In this document: positions 34,653 through 39,499 of the stretch, one piece after another
How positions within the stretch are numbered: the first letter of the stretch is position 1
Layout of the letters: the number at the start of each line of letters is the position of its first letter
Source: Alphaproteobacteria bacterium
GTDB taxonomy: Bacteria; Pseudomonadota; Alphaproteobacteria; Sphingomonadales; Sphingomonadaceae
Length of the DNA stretch: 64,000 nucleotides
Assembly: GCA_030431875.1 (NCBI GenBank)
Contig: JAUIIG010000001.1
Coordinates: 101,539-165,538 of the forward strand
Direction of reading: 5' to 3'
Program-made: the position numbers and the translations under genes
Notes under the pieces: model-generated
The model's input: the letters and a program-made list of their open reading frames with translations, nothing else
Told to the model about the DNA's origin: nothing
Database searches by the model: none

Positions 34653-35288
34653 TCAAGTGGCCTTGGCCGCAGCTTTGCCGTTGCCGGCAGCCACTTCGTC
34701 CAGTTCTTCGAGGATGGCCCGGTGGGCGGCCGGGTCTTCAAGCGAGCGATCGGGAATGTCGCCATCTTCCAGCATGGAAGAAAGGGTCGCCCGGGCGCGG
34801 CCCACGCGGCTCTTGATCGTGCCGACCGCGCAGCCGCAGATGTTGGCCGCTTCCTCGTACGAAAAGCCGCCGGCACCCACCAGCAGCAGCGCCTCGCGCC
34901 GCTCGGGCGGCAGGGTCAGCAGGGCGCGGTGCAGGTCGCTGAGGTGGATCGGCTCTTCCTGTCCGGCAGGCGCGGTCAGGATGCGCTCGGCCACGTTCTC
35001 GTCATAGTCGCCGCGGAAGCGGTTGCGCCGCATGTCGGTGAGATAGGCATTGCGCAGGATCACGAAGGTCCAGGCGCGCATCGAGGTGCCGGGTTCGAAC
35101 CGTTCCTGCGCTGCCCAGGCCTTGAGCATGGTTTCCTGCACCAGGTCGTCCGCCATGTCAGGCCGACCGCACAGGCCGCGGGCGAATGCGCGCAGGTGCG
35201 GTACGACCTCGGTCAGTTCCCGCTTGAAGGCGCGTTTGTCCTCGGCGCTGCGTTCGGGCAGCTTTCGCTCTTTGGGCTTGTCGCTCAT
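34653..35288 (-). CDS. ecfG: General stress response ECF sigma factor EcfG
   Basis: At 211 residues it has region 2 (HLRAFARGLCGRPDMADDLVQETMLKAWAAQERFEPGTSMRAWTF split across about 30-80) and region 4 (LTLPPERREALLLVGAGGFSYEEAANICGCAVGTIKSRVGRAR, about 125-170). The ADDLVQETMLKAW pattern and linkage to nepR identify the EcfG (ECF15) group. The ATG overlaps the nepR stop as ATGA. The C-terminus has an Ala/Lys tail. An EcfG-type promoter lies upstream of nepR, so autoregulation is expected. Confidence 0.93.
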   Translation of the reverse strand: MSDKPKERKLPERSAEDKRAFKRELTEVVPHLRAFARGLCGRPDMADDLVQETMLKAWAAQERFEPGTSMRAWTFVILRNAYLTDMRRNRFRGDYDENVAERILTAPAGQEEPIHLSDLHRALLTLPPERREALLLVGAGGFSYEEAANICGCAVGTIKSRVGRARATLSSMLEDGDIPDRSLEDPAAHRAILEELDEVAAGNGKAAAKAT

Positions 35289-35464
35289 TTTTCCCCGCTA
35301 TCGTCCAGCTTCGAAAGCAGGTCCTTGAAGGTGTCGGGCAGCGGCTCATCCACTACCGAATCGTACAGGCGCTTCAGGCCGGAAGCCCATTCCGGATCGC
35401 CCGGTTTGGCGGCGGAACCCTTGGGCAGATTGGGCGGGGGAACTTGTTCCTCTCCAGATGACAT
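35285..35464 (-). CDS. nepR: NepR anti-sigma factor
   Basis: A 59-residue ORF absent from the ORF track. It reads MSSGEEQVPPPNLPKG at the start and contains LKRLYDSVVDEPLPDTF followed by KDLLSKLDD, the conserved NepR helix pattern (Y..V..EP.P..F..LL..LD). NepR holds EcfG inactive until phosphorylated PhyR binds it. The stop overlaps the ecfG start (ATGA), the standard nepR-ecfG arrangement. A GGAAC-N16-CGTT promoter lies 103-127 bp upstream. No phyR gene is next to it in this window. Confidence 0.92.
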   Translation of the reverse strand: MSSGEEQVPPPNLPKGSAAKPGDPEWASGLKRLYDSVVDEPLPDTFKDLLSKLDDSGEK

Positions 35465-35566
35465 TTACGTGTTCGATCCTGTTGTCTGGCAAGCTTTCCG
35501 GCGATCCGGGCTCTCTGGCCCGCACGATCAAAAACTTGCGTGAAGTTGCAATTCTATTCTCTCCGG

Positions 35567-35591
35567 AACGAAATTGCTTCCATCAGGTTCC
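35567..35591 (-). promoter_or_regulatory. EcfG-dependent promoter for nepR-ecfG (GGAAC-N16-CGTT)
   Basis: On the minus strand GGAAC (35591-35587) and CGTT (35570-35567) are separated by exactly 16 bp, matching the alphaproteobacterial GSR consensus GGAAC-N16/17-CGTT. It is positioned to transcribe nepR. The plus strand of the same block also has GGAAC (35565-35569) with GGTT 16 bp downstream, facing the kinase gene. Confidence 0.85.
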
Positions 35592-35692
35592 CCCGAAAGC
35601 AGGTTTTGCAAAAATTGCAGGCCGGTGAGGGGCTCTAGAGGCAAGTTTGTGGGGTCAGGACGCACTTCCGCCCACGGGATCGAGGTATTGAA

Positions 35693-37384
35693 GTGCAGAA
35701 CGAAGGCAGTCGGCGAAGCAGGACGAAGCGGTGGCTGATGCGCTATCCGCGCGGCGTGCCGCTGGGTATCTTCGCGCTCATCGCCGGCATTACCATCCTC
35801 TCTATCTTTGCCATCGAGCGCAGCGAACACCAGCAGCGGCAGGCAGAGATCGAATCGCGGGCGACGGCGATTGCCTCGGCGCTGGAACGGCGCGCCAATG
35901 CCAGCAGCGCCTATCTGCGTGCGGGCGCGGCCCTGCTGTCGACCATGGAGGAAGTTCCTGCCGCCGACTTCCGGCGCTTCGTTTCGGAGCTGCGGCTCGA
36001 TGCGGACTACCGCGGTGCGGAGGGTATCGGCTGGGCCGAGGTCGTGCGTCCGGCGGAGATCGAAGCCTTCAACGAGATGCTTGCTGGCGAAAGCGCGACG
36101 GGGGCACAGCTCAATCCCCGTCCTGACGGCAGTCAGCCGTTTGCCGTCCCGGTCACCTACCTGCAGCCTGATACCGTGCGCAATCGCCGCGCGCTGGGAT
36201 ATGACATGTATTCCGAACCCGTGCGCCGGGCAGCAATGATTGAATCCGAACGCACCGCGCGCCCTACAGCCACGGACGCTATCGTGTTGCAGCAGGAGGG
36301 CGACAGCCCAGCGCCGGGTTTCCTGATCTATATGCCGGTATTCGAGCCGGGGCCCGGTGGCCGCACGCTGAAGGGCTTCATCTACTCTCCCTTCAATGCC
36401 CGCGATTTCCTGCAAAGTGCGCTGGAGCTGGAAGATGCCGGCTCTTACGGCGTGCGCCTCTATGATGGCGACAATGCGGATCGCACCCTGCTGGCCAGTA
36501 CCTTTGATGGCGAGGTCGACAATCGCGACAATGCCACGCGCACGGTGGTCCTGGCCAACAACCGTACCTTGCTGGCGGTCAGTACCGTGGAAGTGCCGGG
36601 CCTGTCTGGCCTGTCGATGGCGACGCTGATCTTCGGCCTGCTCGTCGCGAGCCTGCTGACCCTGCTGGTGCGCATGTTGACGCAGCAGGCGCAGGAAGAT
36701 GAAAGGGCACTTATCTGGTTCGAGGAACAGGCGAGCATCCGCAATTCGCTGACACGCGAGCTGAACCACCGGGTGAAGAACACCCTGGCCAACGTGCTGT
36801 CGATCATCGCCCTGACGCGCCGTCGTGCGGACAGCATAGAGGATTTCGCCACCGGCCTCGACGGACGCATCCGCGCGCTTTCCGCAACCCATGACCTGCT
36901 CACCCAGTCGGACTGGGGCTCAACTCCCGTGCGGGCGGTAATCGATGCCGAGCTGCTACCCTATGCCCATGATGCCGATCACACGGTGGATATGCAGGGG
37001 CCGGACGTGGAGCTGGCCCCCAACGATGCCCTGTCTCTGGGCCTCGCGGTCCACGAACTGGCGACCAATGCCGGCAAGTACGGCGCGCTCAGCACGCCCG
37101 GGGGCAAGGTTTCGGTGCGTTGGGAGAAGGTGGAAGACGGGCTGGTGCGCGTCGAATGGGTGGAAAGCGGCGGCCCGCCGGTAAAGCAGGAGCGCACCCG
37201 CGGATTCGGTACCGACCTGATCGAACGCATCGTGGCGCACGAATTGCGGCACCCTGTCGAGCTGGAATTCCCTGTCGAAGGCGCGCGCTGCGTGCTGCTG
37301 ATCCCGGTCCGCCGTCCCAGCGAATTCATGATCCGCGCCAACAAGAACGAACCGCGCCCCGATACGCGTGGCGAGCAGGCCTAA
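35693..37384 (+). CDS. CHASE-domain HWE/HisKA_2 sensor histidine kinase (PhyK-like)
   Basis: The 563-residue protein has TM1 (GIFALIAGITILSIFAI, about 23-40), an extracytoplasmic CHASE-type domain (about 60-290), TM2 (LSMATLIFGLLVASLLTLL) and a cytoplasmic kinase. The histidine region is RELNHRVKNTLANVLS near residue 355, with HATPase motifs NDALSLGLAVHELATNAGKYGALS and GFGTDLIERIV. HisKA_2/HWE kinases of this type feed PhyR in the general stress response, and the divergent position next to nepR-ecfG supports that role. The start is GTG 35693 with GAGG upstream. Confidence 0.87.
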   Translation: MQNEGSRRSRTKRWLMRYPRGVPLGIFALIAGITILSIFAIERSEHQQRQAEIESRATAIASALERRANASSAYLRAGAALLSTMEEVPAADFRRFVSELRLDADYRGAEGIGWAEVVRPAEIEAFNEMLAGESATGAQLNPRPDGSQPFAVPVTYLQPDTVRNRRALGYDMYSEPVRRAAMIESERTARPTATDAIVLQQEGDSPAPGFLIYMPVFEPGPGGRTLKGFIYSPFNARDFLQSALELEDAGSYGVRLYDGDNADRTLLASTFDGEVDNRDNATRTVVLANNRTLLAVSTVEVPGLSGLSMATLIFGLLVASLLTLLVRMLTQQAQEDERALIWFEEQASIRNSLTRELNHRVKNTLANVLSIIALTRRRADSIEDFATGLDGRIRALSATHDLLTQSDWGSTPVRAVIDAELLPYAHDADHTVDMQGPDVELAPNDALSLGLAVHELATNAGKYGALSTPGGKVSVRWEKVEDGLVRVEWVESGGPPVKQERTRGFGTDLIERIVAHELRHPVELEFPVEGARCVLLIPVRRPSEFMIRANKNEPRPDTRGEQA

Positions 37385-37423: not shown

Positions 37424-38185
37424 ATGTTCAGAGCTCTCCTTGCCAGCCTTGGGCTGCTGCTGTCCGGTTGCGCCCCAGCAGAGGAGAGCGGGCCTGTAGT
37501 GCTGGCAGCGTCGAGCATGACCGAAGCGATCGAAGCCGCAGCCGATGCGTGGGAAGCCCAAGGGCACTTGCGGCCCATCATTTCCTTCGCCGGCAGCGCT
37601 GCGGTGGCGCGGCAGGTGGAGCAGGGCGCGCCTGCCGACGTGGTGATCGTTGCCGATGCCGAATGGATGGACTGGCTGGAGGGTGAGAGCCTGATCGATC
37701 CCCTGACCCGTCGCGACATCGCATCGAACAGCCTGGTCTGGGTTCGTAATGAGATGCATGTCGTGGTGCCGAGGCCAGCGCTTGGCGAGGTGTCGCTCTA
37801 TCCGCGCCAGATTGCCATGGCCGATCCGGAAAGCGTCCCGGCAGGGCGGTATGGTCGCGTGGCGTTGGAACATGCAGGTCTGTGGGAGCAGGTGGCCCCG
37901 ATGATCGTGCCGACCGAGAACGTACGGCAGGCGCTGGCGCTGGTAGAGCGGGGCGAGGTGCTGCTGGGTGTGGTCTATGCCACCGATGCCCGCACGGTTC
38001 CCGGCCTTGTAACCGAGCCACTGCCTTTGCCCGAAGGGGTAGAGGTGCTCTATCCCGCTGCCTTGCTCACCGGTTCCGCCCATGCCGATTCCCGCGATTT
38101 CCTGAACTTCCTGTCGAGCCCCGAAGGCACCGCCATCTTCTGCGAACACGGCTTCACCATGCCGGAGGGGCGTGCGCCATGCTGA
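37424..38185 (+). CDS. modA: Molybdate ABC transporter substrate-binding protein
   Basis: At 253 residues, ATG 37424 with AAGGG about 8 bp upstream gives a lipoprotein signal (ALLASLGLLLSGC, lipobox LSGC), so it is membrane-anchored. The mature protein opens VVLAASSMTEAIEAAADAW, the ModA phosphate/oxyanion-loop pattern, with FAGSAAVARQVEQGAPADVVIVAD typical of the family. It captures molybdate (or tungstate) for ModBC. It overlaps modB by 7 bp. Confidence 0.94.
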   Translation: MFRALLASLGLLLSGCAPAEESGPVVLAASSMTEAIEAAADAWEAQGHLRPIISFAGSAAVARQVEQGAPADVVIVADAEWMDWLEGESLIDPLTRRDIASNSLVWVRNEMHVVVPRPALGEVSLYPRQIAMADPESVPAGRYGRVALEHAGLWEQVAPMIVPTENVRQALALVERGEVLLGVVYATDARTVPGLVTEPLPLPEGVEVLYPAALLTGSAHADSRDFLNFLSSPEGTAIFCEHGFTMPEGRAPC

Positions 38186-38871
38186 CGCCTGCCGAATGGA
38201 CCGTGGTGGCGCTGTCGCTGAAGGTCAGCCTCGTCGCGGTGCTGGTAACCATGCCGATCGCCTACGGTCTCGCCTGGGTGATCGCGCGACGGCGCTTTCC
38301 GGGGCGCATGCTGCTCGATGCGCTGGTGCACTTGCCGCTGGTGCTGCCGCCGGTGGTGACTGGCTGGTTGCTGCTCATCCTATTGGGCCGCAACGGCGCG
38401 ATTGGCGGCTGGCTCTACGAGACCTTCGGCGTGACGCTGGTGTTCAACTGGACCGGCGCAGCCGTGGCTGCTGGCGTGATGGCCTTGCCGCTGATGGTGC
38501 GCGCCATGCGGCTATCGATCGAGGCGGTCGACCGGCGGCTGGTGGGTGCGGCGCGCACGCTGGGGGCATCGCCGTGGCATGCCTTCCTCACCATTACCCT
38601 GCCACTCAGCCTGCCGGGCATCGCTGCCGGGGCCATGCTCGGCTTTGCCCGTTCGCTAGGCGAATTCGGCGCGACGATCACCTTTGCCGCCAATATCGCG
38701 GGCGAGACGCGCACCCTGCCGCTGGCGATCTATACCGGCCTGCAATTGCCCGGTGCGGAGAGCGCGGTGACGCGGCTGGCGGTGATCGCCATTGTCCTGT
38801 CGCTGGGGGCGCTGCTGGTGTCCGAATGGCTCGTCCGCCGCTCGCAGGGGAACCGCGCCCATGTTCTTTGA
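38179..38871 (+). CDS. modB: Molybdate ABC transporter permease
   Basis: The 230-residue inner-membrane permease has about five helices. HLPLVLPPVVTGWLLL and the EAA-type loop AARTLGASPWHAFLTITLPLSLPGI are typical of ModB. ATG 38179 overlaps the modA end; the longer track ORF to 37882 is the wrong frame of modA. It overlaps the modC start by 11 bp, so the operon is modABC. Confidence 0.95.
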   Translation: MLTPAEWTVVALSLKVSLVAVLVTMPIAYGLAWVIARRRFPGRMLLDALVHLPLVLPPVVTGWLLLILLGRNGAIGGWLYETFGVTLVFNWTGAAVAAGVMALPLMVRAMRLSIEAVDRRLVGAARTLGASPWHAFLTITLPLSLPGIAAGAMLGFARSLGEFGATITFAANIAGETRTLPLAIYTGLQLPGAESAVTRLAVIAIVLSLGALLVSEWLVRRSQGNRAHVL

Positions 38872-39499
38872 TGTGGCCATCGACATGCAGGTGGACGACC
38901 ATGCCTTTGCGCTGGAATTTACCTCCGACGCCAAGCTTACCGCGCTGGTCGGGCCATCGGGCGTGGGCAAGACCAGCACGCTCAACGCCATTGCGGGGCT
39001 GCTGTGCCCGCAGGCGGGCCGGATCGCGGTGGCGGGCGAGATATTGTTCGACAGCGACCAAGGGATAGACCTGCCGCCCGAGAAGCGCGGTGCAGGCTAC
39101 GTGTTCCAGGATGCGCGGCTGTTCCCGCACCGCAAGGTCTCGGCAAACCTCGTCTACGGGGAGAAGCTGGCTGCTCCGGACAAGCGCTTGATCACCACGG
39201 ACGAGGTCGTCTCACTGCTGGAAATCGGCCACCTGTTGGACCGCTTGCCCGCGACCCTGTCAGGCGGCGAGGCGCGCCGCGTTGCCATCGGCCGCGCGCT
39301 GCTTTCTGCGCCGCGTTTCCTGCTGCTCGACGAGCCACTCGCCTCGCTCGACGAGAGCCGTGCCGAAACCCTGCTCTCGCTGATCGAGCGCCTGCGTGAC
39401 GAACTGGACCTGCCGATGTTGCTGGTCAGCCATTCAACGGCGGAAGTGGAGCGACTGGCGGGCCGGGTGGTCGAAATGACCGTCACCAAGCCCGCCTGA
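38861..39499 (+). CDS. modC: Molybdate ABC transporter ATPase (short form)
   Basis: A 212-residue ATPase with Walker A GPSGVGKTSTLNAI, the Q-loop in YVFQDARLFPH, signature LSGGEARRVAIGRALL, Walker B FLLLDEPLASLD and a switch His in LVSHSTAEV. It ends just after the ATPase core, so the C-terminal TOBE/Mop molybdate-sensing domain of the usual 350-residue ModC is missing. Such short forms exist and should still drive transport but cannot self-sense molybdate through Mop. It converges with iorB, 17 bp apart. Confidence 0.92.
   Translation: MFFDVAIDMQVDDHAFALEFTSDAKLTALVGPSGVGKTSTLNAIAGLLCPQAGRIAVAGEILFDSDQGIDLPPEKRGAGYVFQDARLFPHRKVSANLVYGEKLAAPDKRLITTDEVVSLLEIGHLLDRLPATLSGGEARRVAIGRALLSAPRFLLLDEPLASLDESRAETLLSLIERLRDELDLPMLLVSHSTAEVERLAGRVVEMTVTKPA

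Follow-up and report, generated by a model that had tools for sequence, protein, structure and literature searches.

Genes flanking the intergenic region

Within the window, namely the whole 64-kb stretch of DNA that was analysed, the sigma factor of the general stress response (GSR) and its anti-sigma factor are encoded on the minus strand, and a histidine kinase is encoded divergently from them on the plus strand. The nepR gene (35285..35464, minus strand) encodes an anti-sigma factor of 59 aa (Pfam NepR, E = 9.7e-17), and ecfG (34653..35288, minus strand), which overlaps nepR by 4 bases, encodes the 211-aa ECF sigma factor of this response, with the Pfam domains Sigma70_r2, Sigma70_r4_2, and PhyR_sigma2 and with 84-93% identity to its relatives. 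Across the intergenic region lies the gene (35693..37384, plus strand) for a 563-aa kinase with CHASE (E = 7.1e-43) and HWE_HK (E = 9.7e-26) domains. These Pfam matches agree with the names nepR, ecfG, and CHASE kinase given in the initial annotation. The kinase, one of only two of the HWE/HisKA_2 type encoded in the genome, has both its H-box (HRVKN) and its N-box (HELATNAGKYGAL) intact, and the motifs HELATNAxKYGAL and GFGtdLI are conserved across the kinase family. An assignment of this protein as PhyT, a phosphotransferase with a degenerate ATPase domain, was rejected because the N-box and GFG motifs are intact and conserved.

The genome encodes all three proteins of the partner switch, NepR, EcfG, and PhyR, with phyR located ∼37 kb from nepR-ecfG on the same contig, outside the window. 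In most relatives, the kinase gene lies between nepR-ecfG and a convergent phyR. The kinase gene belongs to the GSR locus, which we count as support for its control by EcfG; judging from its position and family, the kinase would phosphorylate PhyR. As a separate observation, phyR, which has moved away from nepR-ecfG in this genus, still has an EcfG promoter of its own, GGAACC-N15-CGTT, which in the genome analysed here (C72, L153:3878-3932) lies ∼30 bases upstream of the gene start.

Co-directional with the kinase gene, and beginning 39 nt past it, lies modABC (37424..39499), which encodes a molybdate-type ABC transporter and comprises modA (37424-38185, plus strand; SBP_bac_11), modB (38179-38871, plus strand), and modC (38861-39499, plus strand), the last two being named from their open reading frames and context. 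These genes adjoin the kinase gene in most genomes of the same genus, with a gap of ∼40-200 nt, and relatives have the convergent phyR at this place. Since modABC lies directly 3' of the kinase gene, a rightward promoter might also serve the molybdate transporter, and transcription from a stress promoter may read through into modABC.

A 27-bp block with overlapping promoter elements

Direct reading of the plus strand from 35565 to 35591 gave GGAACGAAATTGCTTCCATCAGGTTCC, a 27-base sequence of the form GGAACG-N15-GGTTCC, which, from its sequence and its conservation in relatives, is a candidate EcfG-type promoter for both directions. Toward nepR-ecfG, the minus strand contains an exact GGAAC-N16-CGTT (35591-35567), with a −35 element GGAAC at 35587..35591, assigned from the sequence and from related loci, and a −10 element CGTT at 35567..35570; the nepR start lies ∼100 bases downstream. 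Toward the kinase, the plus strand contains GGAAC-N16-GGTT (35565-35589), with the −35 element GGAAC at 35565..35569, the first two bases of which (GG) serve this direction only, and the −10 element GGTT at 35586..35589, again ∼100 bases upstream of the start. Each direction thus has an EcfG-type pattern upstream of a GSR gene (GGAAC-N16/17-CGTT for nepR and GGAAC-N16/17-(C/G)GTT for the kinase), and the two sets of elements are oppositely oriented and overlap in one sequence, as is characteristic of bidirectional promoters.

Both the positions and the spacings are those proposed in the initial annotation, which had further rated the plus-strand GGTT as matching three of four −10 bases. The GGTT is indeed present, but this rating is too low, since published EcfG consensuses admit GGTT: for the −10, C/GGTT has been published for Methylobacterium (PMC4814048) and GTT for Sphingomonas melonis, a species in which GGTT is present at several EcfG-dependent genes (PMC6599016), and the first −10 base of EcfG promoters tolerates change (PMC4814048, PMC6599016). 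A sigma-70 promoter for the kinase gene was rejected, as a simple consensus scan of 35400-35750 gave no sigma-70-like site.

Single EcfG-type matches occur in the 64-kb window about as often as expected by chance, with 2 observed versus 1.46 expected for GGAAC-N15..18-CGTT, and 2 versus 2.05 for GGAAC-N16..17-NGTT. The in-register two-way pattern, GGAAC-N17-GTTCC, was observed once in the window versus 0.02 expected, and this is its single occurrence in the whole 2.96-Mb genome, although its rarity is post hoc, the pattern having been defined after the block was seen. Six other GGAAC-N15..18-GTTCC sites exist in the genome, none of them at N17 and most of them within open reading frames according to a rough listing of these. 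Because the two-way pattern was chosen post hoc, we took its conservation in relatives as the real test.

Conservation and splitting of the block in relatives

All 23 loci from the same genus contain GGAACG-N15-[G/T/A]GTTCC at an identical length of 27 bp, in a surrounding region that has diverged. The block is retained at nearly all of the 80 ecfG loci from Erythrobacteraceae, as in most of the close outgroup genera sampled, and it is absent from distant genera with another locus layout. Pooling of the loci and removal of duplicates gave 107 distinct promoters, 106 of which (from Erythrobacteraceae and close Sphingomonadaceae) are comparable; the remaining one, at L168, is among 12 promoters without GG and has a different gene arrangement. 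The two-way block is present in 95 of the 106 comparable promoter regions, which are otherwise scrambled. The alignment required a nepR promoter, which was found in 120 of 121 related loci with one locus failing the filter, and the invariance of AACG and GTTCC is therefore by construction. Since most of the kinase-side bases are also used by the nepR promoter, the independent evidence consists of the GG and of the replacement seen in Qipengyuania. This GG of the kinase-only −35 is present in 95 of the 107 distinct promoters, with column values of 90-93%, in near-random flanking columns where the top base mostly reaches 26-52%, with the exception of a C at 79% just after GTTCC. The first base of the kinase-facing −10 in the 95 two-way blocks is G in 75, T in 16, A in 4, and C in none.

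Across Alphaproteobacteria, the symmetric form GGAACG-N15/16-CGTTCC was not enriched over a reversed control, albeit a crude one, which argues for a lineage-specific two-way block; on this basis, we rejected the idea that symmetric two-way EcfG promoters make up a general class in Alphaproteobacteria. At two distant loci (L165 and L166), a ferritin/Dps-like gene is inserted between nepR and a block of exact form, and the leftward promoter there first meets dps, before nepR. Separately, genome G008 of the same genus, which is 98% complete, gave no match to the nepR-ecfG-kinase locus or to phyR, and may have lost its general stress response naturally.

The 11 comparable exceptions to the two-way block all belong to one Qipengyuania clade, in which the nepR promoter is kept and the shared GG is lost. 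Each of them (L077, L088, L089, L099, L101, L110, L187, and L191-L194) has a separate, exact GGAAC-N16-[C/G]ATA that faces the kinase gene and is located between this gene and the nepR promoter. A GGAAC-N16 candidate in the same interval was found in 4 of the 95 two-way loci, and three of these (L095, L098, and L104), in which both arrangements are present, are nested with the 11 exceptions. In a kinase tree built by a quick method and containing some long branches, the 11 and the 3 loci make up a single clade (SH-aLRT, 100%), and the tree places the two-way state as the ancestral one. The pair that replaces the lost GG varies by subgroup (GT, AC, AG, or CC), which suggests that the second promoter was gained once and that the shared −35 decayed more than once. 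The replacement may have been a single event, and a regain of the shared form is a conceivable alternative history for this clade. The [C/G]ATA at N16 is possibly a variant recognition site of EcfG or of another ECF factor; EcfG may read the replacement promoters less efficiently, or another ECF factor may read them.

From these comparisons, we consider the 27-bp block probably a bidirectional EcfG promoter, with nepR-ecfG on one side and the CHASE-HWE kinase gene on the other. Other ECF factors also have GGAAC-like −35 elements, and both directions could be used with the kinase-facing promoter serving chiefly a different ECF sigma factor with a GGAAC −35, a reading that would also account for the [C/G]ATA, in place of GTT, in the Qipengyuania replacements. 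We nevertheless regard it as unlikely, because the ancestral form has a GTT −10 on both strands together with an identical −35, and because the kinase gene is part of the EcfG locus.

It is likewise improbable that the nepR-ecfG promoter alone is real, with the CC after CGTT acting as a promoter-specific G+C discriminator (e.g., in control by growth rate or ppGpp) and the match on the plus strand arising as a by-product, even though most plus-strand elements coincide with bases needed by the nepR promoter and single EcfG-type matches in the window are no more frequent than chance predicts. The EcfG promoters of phyR from the same genus (n = 29), which were used as a control set, have GGAACC in 28 and CGTT in 29 cases, and CGTT is followed by CA in 20 and by CC in none, which indicates that CC is not required by an ordinary EcfG promoter. 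At nepR, by comparison, CC follows CGTT in 23 of 23 promoters versus 0 of 29 at phyR (Fisher, 2.8e-15, uncorrected for kinship). Moreover, the Qipengyuania nepR promoters have AC, GT, or other pairs at this position, with a separate kinase-facing GGAAC-N16 in 11 of 11, and a discriminator would leave unexplained the exact GG at −35 spacing from the conserved GTT.

Inverted repeats between divergent genes are typical of operators, and the palindrome could be read as the operator of a dimeric transcription factor for both genes, its EcfG likeness being coincidental or additional. This is very improbable, since (i) the arms are unequal, with position 6 of the left arm always G and its mirror base G, T, or A but never C; (ii) both half-sites match EcfG elements at the published spacing; (iii) the leftward site is of the same type as the nepR2-ecfG1 promoter of Sphingopyxis (PMC7083833); and (iv) the split clade separates the arms into two unidirectional ECF-type promoters. 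For the bidirectional EcfG promoter, the conservation of the block, the phyR control, and the separate promoters in all 11 exceptions together indicate selection on the kinase-facing side. The original proposal that a single near-palindromic block may serve the sigma factor, the anti-sigma factor, and the kinase is hence strengthened by the family-wide conservation with exact spacing, by the phyR control, and by the Qipengyuania split.

Predicted function and comparison with known promoters

In the mechanism that we propose, each −35 would overlie the −10 of the other direction (GGAAC/AACG on one side and GTT/GTTCC on the other), with N16 both ways, and EcfG-RNA polymerase would bind the block in either orientation. 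Leftward binding would lead to transcription of nepR-ecfG, and thus to autoregulation, and rightward binding to transcription of the CHASE-HWE kinase gene of the same stress pathway. We infer from the sequence that transcription in both directions is EcfG dependent and that, with one polymerase at a time occupying the block, the two directions would be mutually exclusive.

The two directions are never optimal together, since the sixth base of the leftward −35 is paired with the first base of the rightward −10. In phyR promoters, the preferred base after GGAAC is C, and C is also the favored first base of the −10, so that only one of the two positions can have it; the leftward promoter combines GGAACC with CGTT, and the rightward one GGAACG with GGTT. 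All 95 two-way blocks have CGTT toward nepR-ecfG, which is a condition of the set, and never a C first in the kinase −10. Among the −10 variants compared in vitro in Sphingopyxis, CGTT gave the most transcript (PMC7083833), so that the kinase side is expected to be the weaker one; the leftward promoter would then be near optimal. Further, since GGAAC and GTT are partly reverse complements, any GGAAC/GTT-type ECF promoter would be about two base changes away from a two-way form.

The bidirectional sigma-70 promoters of E. coli and Salmonella (PMC12825309, PMC10268837) likewise consist of one pseudo-symmetric sequence with two polymerase orientations and divergent RNAs, where binding in one orientation excludes the other, features that are predicted here from sequence. 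Their start sites are mostly 18 bp apart (also 10 or 23 bp), whereas the predicted starts here are ∼35-40 bp apart; the present block also differs in that ECF −35 and −10 elements are superimposed and that both outputs are core parts of the sigma factor's own circuit. In the E. coli promoters, competition was observed only under strong activation of one of the two directions (PMC12825309), and such activation, and hence competition, could arise here during stress.

Compared with the usual alphaproteobacterial GSR locus, in which nepR-ecfG and phyR are divergent (PMC8103513, PMC4814048), the locus would share EcfG autoregulation and EcfG promoters on both units, and it has the histidine kinase that is often encoded; its divergent partner, however, is the CHASE-HWE kinase gene rather than phyR, and both promoters lie in one 27-bp block. 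PhyT of Sphingomonas melonis (PMC5898713, PMC6599016), a membrane kinase-like protein with an HRxxN motif, is encoded in the GSR locus and expressed in an EcfG-dependent manner. The present kinase is similar in motif and locus, but has an intact, conserved N-box and GFG motif and a CHASE domain, whereas the ATPase domain of PhyT is degenerate; the positional counterparts of the kinase in more distant genera look PhyT-like, without ATP-binding motifs. Sphingopyxis granuli TFA also has GGAAC-N16-CGTT upstream of nepR2-ecfG1 with an adjoining divergent gene (PMC7083833), but that gene, ecfG2, lacks an EcfG promoter consensus, and the region is one-way. We found no description in the open-access papers searched of a bidirectional or palindromic ECF promoter with superimposed −35 and −10 elements. 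Bidirectional promoters and divergent EcfG promoters are already known; what would be new is the conserved superposition, in an ECF promoter at the locus that encodes the sigma factor itself, of each −35 on the −10 of the opposite direction.

If true, this reading would add an ECF factor to the housekeeping sigma factors for which bidirectional promoters are known, and such a promoter would sit in the feedback loop of the master stress regulator itself. Its mirrored elements would force a trade-off that fixes which side is stronger. More tentatively, the Erythrobacteraceae block might act as a built-in splitter of fixed ratio that gives each polymerase either the sigma and anti-sigma factors or the kinase, so that positive feedback would be linked to negative feedback and noise possibly damped. 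The Qipengyuania clade, with its ancestral, intermediate, and split forms, provides a natural experiment, and comparison of two-way with split species makes the importance of promoter sharing testable.
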